Source: Bacteroidales bacterium
GTDB taxonomy: Bacteria; Bacteroidota; Bacteroidia; Bacteroidales; UBA932
Assembly: GCA_017559545.1 (NCBI GenBank)
Contig: JAFYRK010000003.1
Coordinates: 1-43,819 of the forward strand
Length of the DNA: 43,819 bases
Direction: 5' to 3'
The notes under the pieces are model-generated. The model worked only from the letters and a program-made list of their open reading frames with translations, was not told the DNA's origin and searched no databases. Shown here one piece after another: positions 6,446 to 23,553 of the stretch (positions within the stretch are counted from its first letter, which is position 1; each line of letters starts with the position of its first letter). The position numbers and the translations under genes were made by a program.

Positions 6446-7900
6446 ATGATGAGTGTGAAGGCAATATCGCTTGACATCGGCAAGGCATTGCAGATCAACG
6501 CATTGTTCATGCTCCTATCTCTAGGGGTTTCGGTGGCTTGTGGCTTTGACTCAGGCTTTACCCCTCTGCTTATCAGTTTCCTCATAACCAGCATAGCGGG
6601 GTCCTTCCCTTTGATTTTCGTAAGGGAAAGCCATCAGCAGGTAACGCCACAGGAGGGATTTATCACTATCGTCATGGCCTGGCTGCTGTCATTCATCTTC
6701 GGCATGCTCCCCTATGTCCTCTGGGGAGGAGAATTCACGCTGATGAATGCATGGTTCGAAAGCGTTTCCGGCTACACGACAACCGGATCGACAATCCTTT
6801 CAGATGTTGAAGCCCTGCCGAAGAGTCTGCTGATGTGGCGCTCTTCTACGCATTATATCGGAGGACTGGGAGTTGTCGTATTCCTTCTTCTGATTTTACC
6901 GGATACAAGCACATTCAAGTTCAAGCTGTCCCATCTTGAACTTTCTTCGATTGCAAAGGAAGGCTACAGATACAAGTCAGGCAAAACCGTCAGGATCATA
7001 ACATTAACATACATAGGCCTCACTATAGCAGAATTCTTCTGTCTATGGGCTGCAGGAATGACTCCATTTGACGCAATCAACCACTCCTTCAGCACGATTG
7101 CCACCGGAGGATTCAGCACGAAGAATACCTCTATCCTGTTTTATGACTCCACTGCAATAAACATAATCATCATGGTCTTCATGGCCCTGGCTTCAATGCA
7201 TTTCGGAGTCATATTCGCAAGCTTGGCGACAAGGTCATTCAAGCCGCTCAAGCATCCGATCACAAGGTATTACTTCCTGGTCATCCTGATTCTTTCCCTT
7301 CTGGCGACATTATCTCTCTCTATCCAGGGAGGGCTTAGGTTCCCGGAGGCTCTGATGAGCGGTTCCTTCCAGGTAATCAGTTTCATCTCAACCACTGGAT
7401 TCGGCCAGGCTGACAACGCCATGTGGCCTGTCATGGCTAACGCCATCCTTCTTTTCGCAGGTTTCCACTGCGGATGCGCAGGCTCGACAACGGGAGGTAT
7501 CAAGGCTGACAGAATGTACATTTCGCTTAAAGCCATAGCGGGAGACTTCCGCAAAAGACTTTCACAATCTGCCATAATAAGGGTAAGAGTAGGTGAAACA
7601 TGTGTCGAGGAAGATACAGTAGCATCGATCTTCCTGTTCATCGTACTGTACATAATGGTACTGTTCCTGTCATTTGTGGCCGTATTGTTCTGCGGCGTAG
7701 ATATAGCGGAGGCATTCTCCGGCACCCTCGCATCTCTTGGGAACGTAGGTCCGGGACTCGGAACGCTCGGCACTATGGGCAACTATGCCTCACAGCCTGA
7801 GGTTGCGAAGTTCATATACACGATGGACATGTTCCTGGGACGACTGGAGATCTTCCCTGTTCTCGTGGTCATGTCACTTATCTTCAAGAAGAGAGCTTAA
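6446..7900 (+). CDS. trkH: TrkH/KtrB-family potassium channel subunit (copy 1)
   Basis: 484 residues. The four pore-loop filters of the Trk/Ktr family are present with their glycines: YTTTGST (110-116), IATGGFST, STTGFG and GNVGPG. About 10 hydrophobic helices are visible. The protein forms the K+ translocating dimer of the inner membrane and normally needs a cytosolic NAD/ATP-binding TrkA or KtrA ring, which is not encoded in this window. The start (ATG 6446 or 6449) is 3 bp after the LuxR-type gene, so both are probably one transcript. The gene is closely related over its full length to the leftward copy at 22102-23553, with almost the same N-terminal frame (SFP/AFPLIF, SGFTPLLISF). Confidence 0.92.
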   Translation: MMSVKAISLDIGKALQINALFMLLSLGVSVACGFDSGFTPLLISFLITSIAGSFPLIFVRESHQQVTPQEGFITIVMAWLLSFIFGMLPYVLWGGEFTLMNAWFESVSGYTTTGSTILSDVEALPKSLLMWRSSTHYIGGLGVVVFLLLILPDTSTFKFKLSHLELSSIAKEGYRYKSGKTVRIITLTYIGLTIAEFFCLWAAGMTPFDAINHSFSTIATGGFSTKNTSILFYDSTAINIIIMVFMALASMHFGVIFASLATRSFKPLKHPITRYYFLVILILSLLATLSLSIQGGLRFPEALMSGSFQVISFISTTGFGQADNAMWPVMANAILLFAGFHCGCAGSTTGGIKADRMYISLKAIAGDFRKRLSQSAIIRVRVGETCVEEDTVASIFLFIVLYIMVLFLSFVAVLFCGVDIAEAFSGTLASLGNVGPGLGTLGTMGNYASQPEVAKFIYTMDMFLGRLEIFPVLVVMSLIFKKRA

Positions 7901-7904
7901 GAAT

Positions 7905-9026
7905 TTATCTGGACAGCAGGGACTGCAGATTGAACCTTACGGTCACCATCTGCTGGGTTCCGCAGTATTTCATTGCGTTGAAATGGAAAATCGCTCCTAT
8001 GCGGATATTGATATATCTTGATGAGCCTTTGAAATCGGGTTCATAATATACTTCAAGCCTGTCGTAGATGCCCAAGCCCTTACTTCCATCATCATACACA
8101 CGATAGAACGGATCTCCCATATAAAGTTCCGGCCCATACTTGACTCCCGTATTATCCTTATTGTTATAAAGAGGCATCATATCTGTACCACAGAAAAGTC
8201 TGTTGCGCACACCGACGTTCCAGTTTCTGATATCCAGATCCAACTCGCCTCCAGACGGGAACACATAGCCGTCTCCATGCACCCTGTCGTTCTGCAAGCC
8301 CTGGAGCCAGCCCAGACGTACGTCCATACGCTGAAACCCGGTCATGTCCGAGAAATCGAACTTCAGATACGGATTGAGCAGAATATTGTCAACCACTCCC
8401 TTCTGCTTATATGAGTTTGCAAAATGGTACAGATAACCGGCATAACCCAAAGCCATGAACGGAAGAAGTTTTCCTTCACCGGCAGAAAACACCATAAACT
8501 TTTCCCTTCTGTCCGGACCATATTGTCCCATCCAGTCACATGCCACCTCAAACGAAGCCTTCGGACGTCTTACCTGAAGAATTATTCCCTCGAGATTATT
8601 GTCATAGAAAAGCAGGGAGTCCGAGAAGAATGCAGGCGAATAATCACCTGTCGTGCGGTGTCTCGGAAAGATTCCGGCATATAAAGTAAGGTCTGTATCA
8701 CAGAGAGTCTTCTGCATCCTGTAATATAATGTAAGCTCTTCAAGAATCTTGTTCTGGACTCCCCCGAAATCCTTCATCACATCCGCACCGATCATGACCT
8801 TGTGCTCCTCTCCTTCCTGCGGACGCACCGAAATTCCGACCGAAGGAGTTACCCTGGCGCCAAAGATGGTCATGGAAGATGAATACGCACTCTTATATAG
8901 TTCCCTGTTGTCAAATCTCATCAGGAAATCAAGATCATAAGCAAGGCTGACGGTCTTCAGGCTGTCGGATGCCTGGAGTGTGAAGGTTGATATGAATATA
9001 AAGATAAGAAGGAATAGTCTTTTCAC
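7905..9026 (-). CDS. Probable outer-membrane beta-barrel protein of unknown function
   Basis: 373 residues starting with GTG at 9026. The N-terminus MKRLFLLIFIFISTFTLQASDS is a typical signal peptide with cleavage near residue 20. The rest lacks long hydrophobic helices and is made of alternating strands rich in Tyr, Phe, Gly and Asp (for example LTLYYRMQKTLCDTDLTLYAG, LEVYYEPDF, YINIRIGAIFHFNA), ending in a strand VRFNLQSLLSR. This suggests a porin-like barrel, but I recognise no named family, and the terminal aromatic of classical porins is absent. It ends 4 bp from trkH, tail to tail. A minus-strand -7 box TATCTTTG is at 9049-9056. Confidence 0.7.
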   Translation of the reverse strand: MKRLFLLIFIFISTFTLQASDSLKTVSLAYDLDFLMRFDNRELYKSAYSSSMTIFGARVTPSVGISVRPQEGEEHKVMIGADVMKDFGGVQNKILEELTLYYRMQKTLCDTDLTLYAGIFPRHRTTGDYSPAFFSDSLLFYDNNLEGIILQVRRPKASFEVACDWMGQYGPDRREKFMVFSAGEGKLLPFMALGYAGYLYHFANSYKQKGVVDNILLNPYLKFDFSDMTGFQRMDVRLGWLQGLQNDRVHGDGYVFPSGGELDLDIRNWNVGVRNRLFCGTDMMPLYNNKDNTGVKYGPELYMGDPFYRVYDDGSKGLGIYDRLEVYYEPDFKGSSRYINIRIGAIFHFNAMKYCGTQQMVTVRFNLQSLLSR

Positions 9027-16991: not shown

Positions 16992-17030
16992 AATAAGAGG
17001 CCATCGGATAATCCGATGGCCTCTTATTAT
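16992..17030 (+). terminator. Intrinsic terminator of lysA-ffh
   Basis: An 18-base arm (16992-17009, AATAAGAGGCCATCGGAT) is mirrored perfectly by 17011-17028, and the right arm ends in TCTTATTATAT. This gives a long GC-rich stem with a U-rich end, starting 3 bp after the ffh stop. Confidence 0.85.
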
Positions 17031-17034
17031 ATAA

Positions 17035-17091
17035 CATCCTTTTCCTATACCCCTGTGCCTAATGTCCGTAAAACTATGACCTTTAGGCACA
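17035..17091 (+). repeat. Direct repeat flanking the RAYT gene, left copy
   Basis: 57 bp, identical to 18262-18318 except at two positions. It begins CATCCTTTTCCTATA and contains the first hairpin, GTGCCTAA...TTAGGCAC (17055-17090). See the REPIN entries for the structure. Confidence 0.9.
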
Positions 17092-17177
17092 GATCAATAA
17101 ACTCAACTTCCTGATTATCATACCATCGAAAATGCCATGTCGTGCTTAAAGGTCTAAATTAATCAACCATTAGGCAC
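17055..17177. repeat. REPIN-like element, left of the RAYT gene
   Basis: Two hairpins in opposite orientation. The first (17055-17090) has arms GTGCCTAA and TTAGGCAC. The second (17142-17177) has arms GTGCTTAA and TTAGGCAC. The reverse complement of the second aligns with the first through both arms and the GTGCCTAATG / GACCTTTA inner parts, each 36 nt long. They are separated by 51 bp. Two REP sequences facing each other is the definition of a REPIN, the mobile form mobilised by RAYT transposases. Confidence 0.8.
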
Positions 17178-17186
17178 ATATAACGA

Positions 17187-18044
17187 TTATTCTAGATATT
17201 TGATTATATCTGATACAGCAACACCTGTAATTCGTGCAAGTTGCTTTGATGAGGCACTGAACCTAACCTTAAGATCCTTTATTAGATTCTTCAGAAGGAA
17301 TTCATTCAACTCGCTGACAGAGGACATTCCGAATTTCTTTTCGAGAAGTTCATTCATGGAACTATGAATGACTGCATCACTGAAGGTGATATTCTCATTG
17401 ACTCCTTTCTTCATAGATAGTGATGAGCTCAGAAAGTACTCAAACGAACGGCTTGATTTAAATAACTCCTCTACGAATACTTTATCAACATAAGACTGTG
17501 GTAGAATATACCCTGCAGGGCCAAACAGCCAGTTTCCAGGAAGAGTCTTGTGTGTATGAAGAAGCGATCGCAACTGTCTTACTGTATAGGATTGTATAGG
17601 GACAGCGGCAACGCTGAAATCAGTAGCACTGAAATAACATCTTGCACTGCTCCACTCATATGCACATGCAATACAATTTATTCCAGCCTTGACAGGGTTA
17701 TTCAGAACATATACAATCAGACGTTTTAAATCCTCAATATCAGGCGGCACCTCGGATTTAGATGTTTCCAGCCCACGTAAATATTTGACATAGCCATACT
17801 TATCACCTAGATAACGAGATAGGAGATGCTTGTATAGCCATATAAAACGTTCGGCTTTGTCTTTGCTGCAATCCAGCACGAAATGCAGATGATTGGACAT
17901 AAGTACAAATGCCAATAATCGTAGTTCAACACCAATACTGGAGCACACTATTGCCACGATATTCATACCTGCAATATAATCCTCACGGCAAATGAAGAGT
18001 TCACGATCTACAAGACCTTTAGTATAAACATGAAAATAAGCCAT
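17187..18044 (-). CDS. REP-associated tyrosine transposase (RAYT, Y1/HUH family)
   Basis: 285 residues from the ATG at 18044 (MAYFHVYTKGLVDRELF); the frame is open to 18104, but a promoter lies between. The HUH motif is SNHLHFVLD (H52, H54). YVLNNPVKAGI carries the likely catalytic Tyr (Y112), matching the YxxxNPxRAG block of RAYTs. The last 60 residues (LKVRFSASSKQLARITGVAVSDIIKYL) look like a DnaA-type helix-turn-helix, typical of one RAYT group. The protein should nick and rejoin single-stranded REP DNA. It is flanked by two REPIN-like elements and is intact. It lies alone between the ffh and dpp IV genes, on the minus strand. Confidence 0.9.
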   Translation of the reverse strand: MAYFHVYTKGLVDRELFICREDYIAGMNIVAIVCSSIGVELRLLAFVLMSNHLHFVLDCSKDKAERFIWLYKHLLSRYLGDKYGYVKYLRGLETSKSEVPPDIEDLKRLIVYVLNNPVKAGINCIACAYEWSSARCYFSATDFSVAAVPIQSYTVRQLRSLLHTHKTLPGNWLFGPAGYILPQSYVDKVFVEELFKSSRSFEYFLSSSLSMKKGVNENITFSDAVIHSSMNELLEKKFGMSSVSELNEFLLKNLIKDLKVRFSASSKQLARITGVAVSDIIKYLE

Positions 18045-18051
18045 TTTTACG

Positions 18052-18082
18052 CAAAGTAACGATGATCTATCCATATACCGAA
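18052..18082 (-). promoter_or_regulatory. Probable promoter of the RAYT gene
   Basis: Minus strand: TTCG (18079-18082), 19 bp, TTACTTTG (18052-18059), each one base away from consensus. The -7 box ends 7 bp before the ATG at 18044, which favours that start and predicts a nearly leaderless mRNA. Confidence 0.45.
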
Positions 18083-18218
18083 AAAGAATTTGCTTAAACG
18101 CCAAAATCGTCTTCTGATCAACCTAAACCGCAGATTTGTATAATAGAATTTAATGGATTTTACTGTAATTTCAGATAAAATCTATACAGGAGGGATAGCA
18201 ATATATAGAAATGTGTTT

Positions 18219-18270
18219 AAAAGGATGGGGTGACTAAAAGTCTTTTGCCGACCAGTCACCCCATCCTTTT
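18219..18270. terminator. 17-bp perfect hairpin with T-run, possibly a bidirectional terminator
   Basis: AAAAGGATGGGGTGACT (18219-18235) is mirrored exactly at 18254-18270, leaving an 18-nt loop. Both strands end in TTTT, so it could stop transcription from either side. The last 9 bp are shared with the start of the right 57-bp repeat, which begins CATCCTTTT; the left repeat has CATCCTTTT too, but not the mirror arm. Confidence 0.6.
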
Positions 18271-18318
18271 CCTATATCCCTGTGCCTAATGTCCGTAAAA
18301 CTGTGACCTTTAGGCACA
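18262..18318 (+). repeat. Direct repeat flanking the RAYT gene, right copy
   Basis: 57 bp, the same as 17035-17091 except for C/T in the CCTATA[C/T]CCC word and A/G in ACT[A/G]TGACC. It includes the hairpin 18282-18317. Confidence 0.9.
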
Positions 18319-18410
18319 CACATCTAAAGATAAAACCATATCTATAAGCACATTACAGAAACCCCTCGTGCTTAAAGGTCAGGTAATATTGACCATTAGG
18401 CACAAGGGGT
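18282..18410. repeat. REPIN-like element, right of the RAYT gene
   Basis: The forward hairpin 18282-18317 (GTGCCTAA...TTAGGCAC) and the inverted hairpin 18368-18403 (GTGCTTAAAGGTC-N10-GACCATTAGGCAC) are 50 bp apart, as in the left element, although the spacer sequence is different. The second hairpin is extended by ACCCCT/AGGGGT arms (18361-18410) and, being 28 bp after the dpp IV stop, may also serve as its terminator. Confidence 0.8.
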
Positions 18411-18437: not shown

Positions 18438-20648
18438 TTACTTACCGAGGAGGTACTTCAGCCAGAAGGCTTGGTTGGCTTTCAGGAAGTGGTCGCCCTG
18501 GTAGCCATAGTAGCCGTGCATTCCGTCCGGGTAGATCATGAAGTCGAACTTCTTGCCTTCGCGGTGGAGGGCGTCAAGGAGCTGGAGGGTGTTCTGGTGA
18601 TGGACATTGTCGTCACCGGTGCCGTGGGTCAGTTTCAGCATGACCGGCTCAACAGATTGCCACGTCGCTGACGCTCCTCGCAATGACATATCATCCGGTT
18701 CTGACTTTCCTTGTAATGAGGTGTCGGCAGATTCGGAGACTGATCGCAATGACGTGTATGAGGTCGGATAGCCGGAGACATAGTTGAGGACTTTTGAGAC
18801 CTCGTAGCCTTCAGGGTTGGCCTGAGGGGTATCCATGTAGCGTTCTGTGTAGTGTGAATCATAGAGAGCCCAGTCATACACACCGCCACCGGCGATTCCA
18901 TAGTGGAACTTGTCAGGAGCCTGCATCAGGAGCATCGATGTCATGGTACCTCCGAACGAGAATCCCTCGACTCCGATCTTGTCACCATCAACATAAGGCA
19001 GTGACTGGAGCCATGTAGCCCATGCACAGAAGTCCTTGACCTCCCACACTGTAAGCTGACGATAGATCATGTCAAGACCGGCACGGCCGTTGTGACCGGC
19101 TGCACGAGGGTCCACTGTAATCTGGATGATTCCGTTTTCAGAATACCACTGATTTGCAGCAGTAGGCTTTACCCAACGGTCACGCACCATAGGAGTATTA
19201 GGTCCGCCATAGATATCAACATGGACAGGATATTTCTGGGTCTTGTCAAAATCCTTAGGATAGACAATCATGCCCGGTAGCTGGAATCCGTCTTCAGTTG
19301 TAATGAACACAAGTTCCGGAAGCGCGTATGCGAACGCATTGTAATCCGGCCCCTGCATATCTGCAACCACACTCCCCTGACGAAGTTTCTTTCCTGACGA
19401 CGGAAATATTGCGACCTTGGTTGGAGTCGTCATGTTCGAATACGAAGCCACGAAATATTTGCCGTCTGGTGAGAACGAGATGCCTGTAGTATTGTATGCA
19501 GGATCAGTGAGAGCTGTGATTACACCCTTCTTGTCTACCTTGTAAAGAGCCTGCTTGCCGACTGCATCACGCTTAGCAGTGTAGTACACATCACCCTTCT
19601 TCTCATCAACGCGCACGATATCCACATTCCAGTTCGGGCCGCCTGTGAGGCGACGGAAGGTCTTGCCATCATATGAGAGGAAGTAGATCTGCTGCCAGCC
19701 TGTTTCGAATTCGCGGGCCATATAAAGTCCGTTATCAGTGAACACAACACCATCAAACCAGTTAAGCCATGTCTTATAGGTCTCATTATATACATGACGT
19801 TTGCTGCCGTCAGCGGCATTTACCGCATAGAGGTCGATTGTATTCTGGAGACGAGGCATGCGGGCAATGAAGAACTCCTTTGAGCCTGGTCCCCAGAACG
19901 GGATGCCGAAATACTGATCCAATGTCGGGTCAAAGTCAGCCCAAGTGATTGCATCCACGCATCGCATTGGGCATGAGATGCACTCTGAGGTAAGATCAAC
20001 GATACCGATACGGACCTGCGGGTTGGTCTGACCGGCCTTAGGATAGCGAGTCTCGCTGAGCGAACCGCCAAGGGCGAGATCGGTCACGCGCGGACTCTGC
20101 GACTTCGAGGCAGCGGCTGCAGGGTTTGCAAATGCCGAATAGATCGGGAACATCGGCACCTGTGAATTGTCAAAGCGATAGAAACCGATCTTCTTGCTGT
20201 CAGGTGACCACCAGAACGCCCTGTATTTTGAAGCACGACCGAAAATCTCCTCAAAGTACACCCATGATGCATATCCGTTCATGATGACATCGGTGCCGTC
20301 AAAAGTAAGGCGCGTCTCGACGCCCGACTCAATATCCACTACATAAAGGTCATTGTCACGAGTGAATGCAAGTTTTGTCGAATCCGGAGAGAATGTCAGA
20401 TTGACAGCGCCTTCCGGCCTGACAGGGAGCGCAGAATATTTTGCCGGAGCCTTTACTCCGACTGTCTTCTCGCCCGTACGGGGATTCACCACAAAGGCAG
20501 TGCTGTCAGAATAAAGTCCGTTATAAGTGAAGATGACCTGCTCATCATCAAGCCATTTCCACGCACGCGGAACAGGATTGAACTCTTGAGCGGCAGCGCA
20601 CACCGCCACCACTGCACACAATACTGATAACAACAATCTTTTATTCAT
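18438..20648 (-). CDS. Dipeptidyl peptidase IV-like serine peptidase (S9B) with an inserted repeat
   Basis: 736 residues. A signal peptide MNKRLLLSVLCAVVAVCAAAQ is followed by an eight-bladed beta-propeller (about 25-470) and an alpha/beta hydrolase domain. The catalytic Ser is S564 in GFSFGGT, Asp is D679 in HGTGDDNVH and His is H711 in PDGMHGYYG. The propeller glutamates that bind the peptide N-terminus are in YFEEIFG. The enzyme should cut X-Pro or X-Ala dipeptides in the periplasm. Residues 633-665 are three 11-residue repeats absent from ordinary family members, lying between the Ser and Asp of the triad. The gene follows the helicase gene by 8 bp. Confidence 0.92.
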   Translation of the reverse strand: MNKRLLLSVLCAVVAVCAAAQEFNPVPRAWKWLDDEQVIFTYNGLYSDSTAFVVNPRTGEKTVGVKAPAKYSALPVRPEGAVNLTFSPDSTKLAFTRDNDLYVVDIESGVETRLTFDGTDVIMNGYASWVYFEEIFGRASKYRAFWWSPDSKKIGFYRFDNSQVPMFPIYSAFANPAAAASKSQSPRVTDLALGGSLSETRYPKAGQTNPQVRIGIVDLTSECISCPMRCVDAITWADFDPTLDQYFGIPFWGPGSKEFFIARMPRLQNTIDLYAVNAADGSKRHVYNETYKTWLNWFDGVVFTDNGLYMAREFETGWQQIYFLSYDGKTFRRLTGGPNWNVDIVRVDEKKGDVYYTAKRDAVGKQALYKVDKKGVITALTDPAYNTTGISFSPDGKYFVASYSNMTTPTKVAIFPSSGKKLRQGSVVADMQGPDYNAFAYALPELVFITTEDGFQLPGMIVYPKDFDKTQKYPVHVDIYGGPNTPMVRDRWVKPTAANQWYSENGIIQITVDPRAAGHNGRAGLDMIYRQLTVWEVKDFCAWATWLQSLPYVDGDKIGVEGFSFGGTMTSMLLMQAPDKFHYGIAGGGVYDWALYDSHYTERYMDTPQANPEGYEVSKVLNYVSGYPTSYTSLRSVSESADTSLQGKSEPDDMSLRGASATWQSVEPVMLKLTHGTGDDNVHHQNTLQLLDALHREGKKFDFMIYPDGMHGYYGYQGDHFLKANQAFWLKYLLGK
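18654..18752 (-). repeat. Three tandem 33-bp units inside the dpp IV gene (dispersed 'CHCEER' type element)
   Basis: On the minus strand each unit starts with TCATT: 18720-18752, 18687-18719 and 18654-18686. In frame they read SLRSVSESADT, SLQGKSEPDDM and SLRGASATWQS. The last unit is TCATTGCGAGGAGCGTCAGC followed by GACGTGGCAATCT, which is the well-known short dispersed element that in another frame reads CHCEERQRRGNLL. The first two units are degenerate. Length is a multiple of three, so the host frame is kept. Confidence 0.85.
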
Positions 20649-20656
20649 AGTCTTGA

Positions 20657-22102
20657 TTATATTTCAAACAACTCATCCTTGAAGTTAACCAGATACACCT
20701 TTTCGGTGGCACGGGTGATGGCTGTATAGAGCCACTTGAGGTCGTCCACAGTCAGCTCCTCCTGCCAGAACGGGTTGTCTATGAAGACACACTTCCACTG
20801 TCCTCCCTGGGACTTGTGACAAGTTATTGCATTGGCATATTTCAGCTGCAGAGCATTGTAATACTTATCCTCACGCACTGCCTCATATCTTTTCTTCTTG
20901 GTCGTAAGATGTGCATAGTCCTCATTGACTCCCTGATACAGCATGTTCGACTGCTCGTATGTCAGCGATGCACTCTCAGAGTCCAGTGTATCAAGAATCA
21001 CCTTCGCCACAATCTCCTGATCATCATAGTCTGGGAACGAAATACGCGCCTCAGCGAAATGCAATCCATACCTCTCCTCAAACTTCGATATCTTCTGCAG
21101 CTTGGCTATGTCACCGTTGGCGATATAATCCATACCCTCGATACCTTCCAGGAACTGGTAGCAATTCTTCACGATCATGAGCTTGTCGTCACGCACAAGG
21201 CGTTCCTCCTTGAACTGCACAGTCGAACGTATTCCCAGATTATATTTGATCGCACGCTTGTTAGACCGGCACAGAATCACCGTCTCATCCTCGCCATATG
21301 AAGCATACGCATCCGAGATCTTCTCGATAAGATCACCGCCACCGATTCTCTCCACATCTTCAAAGCCCTCTACCTCAAGTCCAAGATCACATATATCCAC
21401 AACTCCAGGTCCATATTCCATCTCAGAGAGAAGCTGCCTGATCAAAGTTGCATTATGCAATATGCCGGACTCCTGCTGCTGACGCACAACAGTAGAGAGT
21501 TCCGCAAAAACAACTCCACCCATCATCGCCATATAGTCATGCAGAAGCGCAGGACTGGCATCCAACCCAACAGGAGGCAGCTGCGCAGAATCTCCTATCA
21601 TAATCACCTTACACTCCACACCGGAACGCACAAAAGCTATCAGGTCATCCAACAGGTTGCCCGAACCGAAAGCGGCGCTTGTCTGCTGCTGACCTGCATC
21701 AATGCCGATCAAAGACACCTCATCAACAACAAAAAGTGTCTCCTTGTCCTTGTTCGGAGCCAGCGAGAACTGCCCGAATCCGTCGCCTCCGACGGACTTC
21801 TGACGATATATATGTTTATGGATTGTGTATGCTGGCTGACCGGCATACGAAGAAAGCACCTTAGCTGCACGGCCAGTCGGAGCAAGCAGCACGCACTTGG
21901 TGCCTGACGCCTTCAATGAAGCTATCACAGACGCTATCGCAGTCGTCTTTCCTGTACCGGCATATCCGTTGACTACAAGAATGTCGTCATCGTCAGTGCT
22001 GACAAAATCTGCCACCTTCCTCAAAAGAGCGTCCTGGCACGTTGTCGGCGCATGCTTCAGATGCGACAGAAAGCATGAATAATGAAAATCGCTCCTCCCC
22101 AT
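20657..22102 (-). CDS. RecD-like AAA/UvrD-type DNA helicase
   Basis: 481 residues from the ATG at 22102, which shares one base with the trkH stop (TGATG). Walker A is VNGYAGTGKTTAI (near 45-57), Walker B is LFVVDEVSLIG, motif III is VIMIGDSAQLPPVG, and the C-terminal UvrD_C_2 module has ITCHKSQGGQWKCVFID and LYTAITRATEKVYLV. It is shorter than RecD2 and lacks its long N-terminal region, so it belongs to the RecD/Pif1-like helicases of about 480 residues common in Bacteroidota. It presumably acts in DNA repair as a 5'-3' motor. Its place between trkH and dpp IV is probably only operon packing. Confidence 0.88.
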   Translation of the reverse strand: MGRSDFHYSCFLSHLKHAPTTCQDALLRKVADFVSTDDDDILVVNGYAGTGKTTAIASVIASLKASGTKCVLLAPTGRAAKVLSSYAGQPAYTIHKHIYRQKSVGGDGFGQFSLAPNKDKETLFVVDEVSLIGIDAGQQQTSAAFGSGNLLDDLIAFVRSGVECKVIMIGDSAQLPPVGLDASPALLHDYMAMMGGVVFAELSTVVRQQQESGILHNATLIRQLLSEMEYGPGVVDICDLGLEVEGFEDVERIGGGDLIEKISDAYASYGEDETVILCRSNKRAIKYNLGIRSTVQFKEERLVRDDKLMIVKNCYQFLEGIEGMDYIANGDIAKLQKISKFEERYGLHFAEARISFPDYDDQEIVAKVILDTLDSESASLTYEQSNMLYQGVNEDYAHLTTKKKRYEAVREDKYYNALQLKYANAITCHKSQGGQWKCVFIDNPFWQEELTVDDLKWLYTAITRATEKVYLVNFKDELFEI

Positions 22103-23553
22103 CACTTAGCCCTTCTGAATATCATTGAAACGACCACAAGTATAGGATATATCTCCACACGGCCAAGGAACATATTCACTGTATATACAAACTTAGACAT
22201 CGATGCTTGAGCCGAATAATTATCCAGGCTGCCGAGATCGCCAAGACCGGGACCGACGGAGCCGATCGAGGCAATCACACCGGAAACAGCCTCTGTAGCT
22301 GTCTCGCCACACAGCATGACTATGATGATTGACAAGAACGTAAGGAGAAAATATGTCACGATATACATCATCACAGCCTTTACGGAACTGTCCGAAAGAT
22401 TAAGTCCGCTCATGCGCACATGACTGATCTCCGAAGGATGCAGCCTATGTCTGACCTCATGGCCTATTGCCTTGAAGGCTATCAGGATTCTGTCAACCTT
22501 GATACCTCCTGTTGTCGATCCCGAGCATCCGCACTGGAATGACACAAACAGGAGAACCACACCGGCCACCCACGGCCACATGGAGTTATCGCATATGGCA
22601 AAACCTGCTGTGGACATATAGCTGACCACTGTGAATGAAGCATCCATCGCTGCCCTTCCGACACTCTCATATCCTCCCTGGGTCAGCAAGACCGACATGA
22701 TGATTACCGAGCAAACCAGAATCGATCCGAAATAATACTTCACGACGGTATTATTCAGCGGCTTGAGCGAGCCGGTTACGAAGACCGCATATATAAGTCC
22801 GAAGTGCATGGCACAGACAGCCATAAGCACAAGGACGATCATATTTATGAGATCGGAACCGAAAGCACCGATGGAAAGGTTCTTCGTACTGAATCCTCCT
22901 GTTGCAGCGATGCTGAAGGCATGATTCAGAGCATCAAAGAAAGGCATTCCTGCAGCCCATAGCGACAGGAGCGACACAACAGTAAAGCCAAGGTACACGC
23001 TGGTGATGATCATCACTATTTTGATGGACTTATACCTATATCCCTCCTTTGACAGAGACGACATCTCCATATTGGTCAGTTTATGCCTGAAAGGGCTTGC
23101 CCCCGGCAACACAAGAAGGAGGAAGACAACAACTCCCAGACCACCGATATAATGGGTAGAAGATCTCCAGAAAAGAAGACTCTTAGGCAAAGCCTCTATA
23201 TCCGTAAGAATTGTAGATCCAGTAGTCGTATATCCGGAAACGCTTTCAAACCAGGCATTTATGAGTGTAAACTCCCCTCCCCACATTACATAAGGCAGCA
23301 TACCGAACACGAAGGAAAGAAACCATGAAAGGACTATGGTAAGAAAACCGTCCTTCAAAGACATAGTTCCCGGTCTGCGAGTGAAAATAAAAGGGAAAGC
23401 GCCTATGAGAAGCGTAATGACGAAACTGATAAGAAGGGGTGTAAAGCCAGAATCCATCCCGTATATCAATGAAACGACAAGGGACAGAAACATGAACAAG
23501 GCACTGACCAGCAGCGCCATGCCCACATTATGTGATATGGCTTTGATGTTCAT
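22102..23553 (-). CDS. trkH: TrkH/KtrB-family potassium channel subunit (copy 2)
   Basis: 483 residues, co-linear with copy 1. Filters: YTTTGST, AATGGFST, MSTAGFA and GSVGPG. In the third filter STTGFG is changed to STAGFA, keeping the glycine. The other three filters are typical. The gene starts 1 bp after the orphan receptor gene and its stop overlaps the helicase start by 1 base, so it is translationally linked with both. Copy 1 has a LuxR-type gene upstream and copy 2 a membrane receptor, so the two channels probably serve different conditions. Confidence 0.92.
   Translation of the reverse strand: MNIKAISHNVGMALLVSALFMFLSLVVSLIYGMDSGFTPLLISFVITLLIGAFPFIFTRRPGTMSLKDGFLTIVLSWFLSFVFGMLPYVMWGGEFTLINAWFESVSGYTTTGSTILTDIEALPKSLLFWRSSTHYIGGLGVVVFLLLVLPGASPFRHKLTNMEMSSLSKEGYRYKSIKIVMIITSVYLGFTVVSLLSLWAAGMPFFDALNHAFSIAATGGFSTKNLSIGAFGSDLINMIVLVLMAVCAMHFGLIYAVFVTGSLKPLNNTVVKYYFGSILVCSVIIMSVLLTQGGYESVGRAAMDASFTVVSYMSTAGFAICDNSMWPWVAGVVLLFVSFQCGCSGSTTGGIKVDRILIAFKAIGHEVRHRLHPSEISHVRMSGLNLSDSSVKAVMMYIVTYFLLTFLSIIIVMLCGETATEAVSGVIASIGSVGPGLGDLGSLDNYSAQASMSKFVYTVNMFLGRVEIYPILVVVSMIFRRAK

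Follow-up and report, generated by a model that had tools for sequence, protein, structure and literature searches.

The locus described here raises the question of whether a RAYT gene (REP-associated tyrosine transposase) that lies between two pairs of hairpins encodes an enzyme that acts on those very hairpins. The window, by which we mean the whole stretch of 43,819 nt that was analyzed, comes from Bacteroidales bacterium (UBA932; GCA_017559545.1, contig JAFYRK010000003.1) and carries the gene on the reverse strand at 17187..18044, between ffh, which is convergent and encodes SRP54 domains, and a gene for an S9-type peptidase. Our results lead us to favor, with a probability of about 0.7, a model in which this locus is a REPtron: an HuH nuclease gene between two REPINs that bear its own target hairpin. 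The model draws on the structure of the hairpins, on their arrangement around the gene, on the dispersal of REPINs for other RAYTs and on covariation in one hairpin family.

The initial annotation had described an intact RAYT gene between two 57-bp direct repeats that are identical at 55 of 57 positions, and this description stands: the repeats lie at 17035..17091 and 18262..18318 (both forward), they are the sole direct repeat of at least 28 nt found in the window (14-base seed), and the reading frame is open. Each flank, as also stated there, is an inverted pair of 36-nt hairpins. In the left REPIN, hairpin 1 (the outer hairpin; 17055..17090, forward) and its inverted partner hairpin 2 (17142..17177, reverse) are separated by a linker of 51 nt (17091..17141); in the right REPIN, hairpin 3 (18282..18317, forward) and its inverted partner hairpin 4 (18368..18403, reverse) are separated by one of 50 nt (18318..18367). 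The inverted order of two REPs, by which a REPIN is recognized, is therefore present at both flanks. Hairpin 1 matches hairpin 3 in 35 of 36 nucleotides, with near-identity running past the hairpin ends, and hairpin 2 matches hairpin 4 in 27 of 36. The proposed divergence of the spacers between the flanks was confirmed, with a likeness at chance level (445 of 1000 shuffles align as well). None of the eight tetranucleotides adjoining the four hairpins on both strands is GTAG or GTGG, the forms of the GT[AG]G foot. Two further inverted repeats lie close by: a terminator-like, perfect 18-bp repeat past ffh (16992..17028, forward) and a 17-bp repeat between the RAYT start and the right REPIN, where it overlaps the 57-nt repeat (18219..18270). 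No tnpB adjoins the RAYT gene in the window, and an Rfam scan of the window gave zero matches at gathering scores.

Other repeats in the window are recorded here in their own right. Two perfect matches to CGCAATGACRT lie at 18679-18755, in the peptidase ORF by the right REPIN; with one mismatch allowed the window holds five, a count equalled in 3 of 100 shuffles. Segments 6651-7125, in a TrkH-like gene (6446-7900), and 22880-23354, in an ORF at 22102-23553, are 71-73% alike in inverted orientation and probably belong to paralogous transporters.

The enzymes of this lineage make up a large and diverged set of RAYTs that are extended at the C-terminus. For the window RAYT the mechanical ORF call starts at a TTG (18104); an alignment of relatives points instead to the ATG at 18044, which would give a protein of 285 aa with HuH residues H52 and H54, a catalytic-type Y112 and a C-terminal extension of ~150 aa. 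This protein matches NCBIfam NF047646 (REP_Tyr_transpos) with E=2e-7 and 31 bits, where the cut-off is 80, and the same model is matched by all 31 aligned RAYTs, with a best E of 7.7e-13; against Pfam Y1_Tnp the window RAYT reaches E=0.03 at best. A PDB search with the single window RAYT returned nothing up to E=5, and one with the family profile reached IS200-type transposases (E 0.075-0.41) as well as a single chain that is unrelated. H52, H54, Y112 and N116 are invariant in the alignment of 31 relatives (the first, second and third of these in 31 of 31 rows), as are Q268 and R271 in the C-terminal extension, and the window ORF has every invariant residue. The distance from HuH to Y is 56-59 residues in 87 of 87 proteins measured, three of 90 having been left out because they failed the Y pattern, and W[QES] lies between HuH and Y in one of the 87. 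HTH-type matches at the C-terminus are weak, each in one member of the 31 and none better than E=0.01. Purifying selection on RAYTs is shown in relatives, with dN/dS of 0.05-0.13 in 9 of 10 pairs; no estimate came from the tenth, and dS is >1 in two of the nine.

RAYT homologs are present in 166 of the 200 genus genomes, often several in each, and the window's own genome has 12 at profile level. Seven RAYT-like proteins of ~300-335 aa in this genome fall into two additional groups, both strongly diverged (L007, L008, L009 and L011; L010, L012 and L014), with flank repeats above threshold at L009, L010, L011 and L012 and not at L007, L008 or L014. We had considered that the long RAYT form might be confined to one genus and dropped this idea, because the family sample has matches (E ≤1e-10) in 75 of its 149 genomes, spread over 12 of 25 genera; among the listed matches, most span the full profile. 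Matches in the order sample (E ≤1e-5) come from 32 of 149 genomes, in a set that includes 97 unlisted, unmatched genomes whose kinship is not shown, and the 30 matching genomes outside the host family match the core only, with nothing past profile position 171 of 286.

To see how often hairpins flank these genes, we took 99 RAYT loci, namely 10 from the own genome and 89 drawn from among the best-scoring sample matches, which are not a random draw. Two were dropped (L013, which had no match, and L032, in which no frame was found), leaving 97, and seven of these were dropped for short flanks. In 50 of the remaining 90 loci the upstream and downstream flanks share a repeat that scores above the 99th percentile of mismatched flanks, and in 40 a repeat above this threshold was not found. 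The hairpin sequences mostly differ among the 14 loci displayed. Dispersal was assessed by whole-genome BLAST for five RAYTs, and four of these have 2-10 REPIN copies elsewhere in their genomes: 10 in G081, beyond the two at the RAYT gene, 4 in G149, 2 in G191 and, for a RAYT on contig C70 of the window's own genome, 5, of which two are weak (76% identical). The fifth, the window RAYT, has none in its assembly, which is 69% complete. The G081 unit was also searched for in four control genomes. Nothing fell below E=0.3 in two of them, G023 gave a partial match at 1.7e-5 together with another match at 0.002, and in G191, home to a related RAYT, the matches were weaker, reaching 4.8e-10 at best. 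The intergenic clustering asked about in the initial annotation is seen for G081, G149 and the own genome, the three for which copies were fetched: 18 of 19 lie outside ORFs of at least 100 aa (greedy scan), and the remaining one, which is weak, overlaps an ORF of 167 aa.

The window's own hairpin behaves differently, and the proposal that it is a dispersed genomic REP was not borne out. Within the 69% of the genome that is assembled, the exact hairpin pattern has four matches, all at the window locus, the outcome that the initial annotation had named as refuting, and BLAST with the left REPIN has no further match below E=1. Across the genus sample of 200 genomes, the own genome included, the pattern with a 16-24 nt loop matches in two genomes, that of the window and G160, where the match (C43:7718-7752, L174) lies ~90 nt from a RAYT at 7845-8732. 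Since a reversed control pattern matches in 3 of 200 genomes, the number of matches is at chance level and it is the place beside a RAYT that tells. The G160 RAYT next to this match (L019) lies outside the window RAYT's clade, which could reflect convergence, exchange or chance. Because only the two gene-flanking REPINs are seen at the window locus, its other REPINs are gone, very few or hidden where the genome is not assembled. The broader claim, that this genome has its own RAYT-REPIN family with a new REP, thus holds for the lineage, which has such families, and for the C70 RAYT, whose REPIN has copies in the same genome, but finds no support, within the assembled 69%, for the hairpin of the window.

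Covariation of the stems is seen in the G081 family. Of its 24 hairpins 23 were used, the other being a duplicate in sequence; in these, 94.8% of cells pair, the stems have compensatory changes at 6 of 15 pairs, which 0 of 500 shuffles reach, and the paired share drops to 22.6-45.3% in slid controls; the structure was read from the same sequences, and kinship alone can beat shuffles without structure. Of all 4-mers that have a complement at a distance of 4-9 nt, the one that most exceeds its shuffled count in RAYT flanks is GTCC/GGAC (45 of 97 loci, compared with a mean of 9.8 in five shuffles), and a T-rich linker motif occurs at 30 of 97 loci (mean 6.7 in 20 shuffles); both were defined on the loci in which they were counted, and these counts are not independent tests. 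The window hairpins have shorter forms of the core, GTC/GAC or GGT(C)/(G)ACC. A view of hairpin turnover is provided by L030 and L031, from two species, whose RAYTs are 98% identical (dS 0.16) and have the same neighbors: by inspection of this one species pair, the REPIN center is inverted in place at both flanks and the surroundings are colinear. These inversions show turnover of palindromes, and template switching without the RAYT could be an alternative source of them.

If a RAYT acts on its own hairpins, as we propose, the gene and the hairpin sequences would change together. REP similarity across opposite flanks is found in 9 of 11 RAYT pairs that are >70% identical and in at most ~1% of pairs that are <50% identical; the overall correlation between REP and RAYT similarity is weak (rho 0.18). 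A quick tree with SH-aLRT support only places the window RAYT (L005), L015 and L016 in one group (support 95), which joins L017 and L018 (support 99). L005, L015 and L016 have in common 36-nt hairpins beginning GTGC and linkers of 49-51 nt; L015 and L016 adjoin a PIF1/HRDC helicase gene and L005 adjoins ffh. L017 and L018 adjoin ffh yet carry different hairpins. Since the same hairpins occur at two sites and different ones at ffh, hairpin type in this small, five-member clade appears to track the enzyme rather than the neighbor gene, with the G160 match as an exception. The pairing of a kept spacing with a diverged spacer, from which selection on structure had been suggested, holds up in part. 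The linker length is indeed kept at the three nearest RAYTs, but the right window linker resembles one L016 linker (1 of 500 shuffles as good); its likeness to the other L016 linker and to L015 is not significant (69 and 108 of 500), and the left window linker shows no likeness to any of the four others with which it was compared.

The genomic sites were also compared. Among 30 stretches around ffh, each with up to 1.5 kb per side and several of them of little value because a contig ends there, three have a RAYT. A clean empty site at ffh is not demonstrable because the S9 peptidase gene is in none of the 30 stretches; the window's own stretch stops short of it. In L020/L027, L025/L061 and L105/L110 a neighbor matches the opposite-side neighbor of the relative, as if the gene had turned or moved.

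How might such a locus work? We envision a scenario in which the REPs would fold when the strand is single, as on the lagging-strand template during replication, and in which the RAYT would read a RAYT-specific outer stem together with the loop-proximal GGTC(C) core. The enzyme would then cut beside the hairpins with Y112 and copy or move the REPIN doublet to other intergenic sites. By analogy with known TnpA-REP biochemistry, we infer the cleavage, the mobility and the roles of the core and the C-terminus.

A different possibility is that REPIN-RAYT-REPIN moves as one element in the manner of IS200/IS605, with two hairpin ends of like orientation serving as its left and right ends. Such a unit would account for the orientation of the flank repeats, which score higher direct than inverted in 43 of 50 loci, for the two sites occupied by the window RAYT's close kin (ffh in the window, G021 and G007; the helicase gene at L015 and L016), and for a long flank match (>150 aa) on opposite sides in 3 of 70 RAYT pairs displayed. 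However, RAYT pairs at least 87% identical keep the same upstream neighbor in 7 of 7 cases and both neighbors in 5 of 7, the own genome has no near-identical copy of the window RAYT (the next homolog in the 69% assembly is 31% identical), and searches with this RAYT gave zero plasmid matches and one weak phage match (29.5% over half the protein). We consider movement of the whole unit unlikely. It is less probable still that the hairpins are transcription or mRNA-stability elements, such as terminators or sites of autoregulation, rather than enzyme substrates. The copies are intergenic and often near gene ends, and two more terminator-like repeats adjoin the locus, as this account would have it, but the G081 doublets are dispersed in the genome of their own RAYT, with none, partial or weaker matches in the controls, and in the window RAYT's five-member clade hairpin type goes with the enzyme.

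Another alternative, for the window locus itself, is that it is a relic: the gene was kept, its REPs elsewhere have disappeared and gene conversion preserves the flanking repeats. The lack of dispersed copies, a left linker unlike the others and the extension of the near-identity of hairpins 1 and 3 past the hairpin itself are all consistent with this idea, which we regard as doubtful though worth keeping in view: the ORF is open with all invariant residues, both hairpin pairs are intact, and the assembly in which copies were sought is 69% complete. We continue to favor the REPtron model.

Beyond this locus, the data raise the possibility, which we regard as evenly poised, that a single bacterial family bears many co-resident and mutually distinct RAYT-REPIN lock-and-key pairs, whose RAYTs are an undescribed subclass and in which the common GTCC/GGAC core is held as enzyme and outer stem change together from one species to the next. 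If this is true, the codes of recognition have diversified repeatedly and in parallel. The choice of a hairpin by a RAYT has so far been studied for few enzymes, with three enzyme-hairpin pairs treated in the sections of PMC8266576 on which we draw. The natural set described here offers enzyme-hairpin pairs by the dozen, graded in their distance and with several in one genome; it includes dispersed families of small size and, in the case tested, compensatory changes in the stem. A graded natural series of this kind makes the recognition code, and the reason for the long persistence of RAYTs, testable by comparison, and the window locus is an entry point to it.

The REPtrons of E. coli, Pseudomonas and Stenotrophomonas resemble this system in their HuH-Y1 enzyme, in inverted REP pairs on both sides and in a cognate REP for each RAYT and, for relatives of the window RAYT only, in dispersed intergenic doublets. 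The system here differs in window hairpins without the GT[AG]G foot, in the loop-proximal GTCC/GGAC core among the loci, in the absence of the W[QES] motif, in the C-terminal extension and in the small number of copies. With IS200/IS605 elements (IS608, ISDra2) it shares the HuH-Y1 enzyme type and flanking hairpins that for the most part point the same way; unlike them, it has diverged single copies, a site kept among close kin and, in the window, no adjoining tnpB. In the sections of PMC6006769 used here, Bacteroidetes RAYTs are placed in subclass 2.6 (Bertels group 5), with a median of 179 aa, an HuH-Y distance of 82 and a WQ motif. Atypical flanking hairpins that lack GTAG and have copies elsewhere are common to TnpA-Y1 subclass 2.6 and our set, whereas the proteins here have ~285 aa, no WQ and an HuH-Y distance of 56-59, although the measure of distance in that paper may differ; this spacing is close to the 58-67 given there for most subclasses. 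A longer protein with a C-terminal extension recalls subclass 2.1 and the TIRYTs, which are marked by a DnaA_C/HTH domain at the C-terminus, as described in the consulted portions of PMC6006769 and PMC3733652. However, subclass 2.1 is reported in the former to be without REPs, and here REPINs are frequent and the C-terminus has no consistent HTH match; in the same portions of PMC3733652, Bacteroidetes are mentioned solely for CGTC repeats. Judged by these published descriptions rather than by subclass HMMs, enzymes of ~285 aa with this C-terminal extension appear to fit no subclass of PMC6006769. The window locus is thus an ordinary member of the RAYT-REPIN systems by its arrangement and an unusual one by its enzyme and its hairpin.
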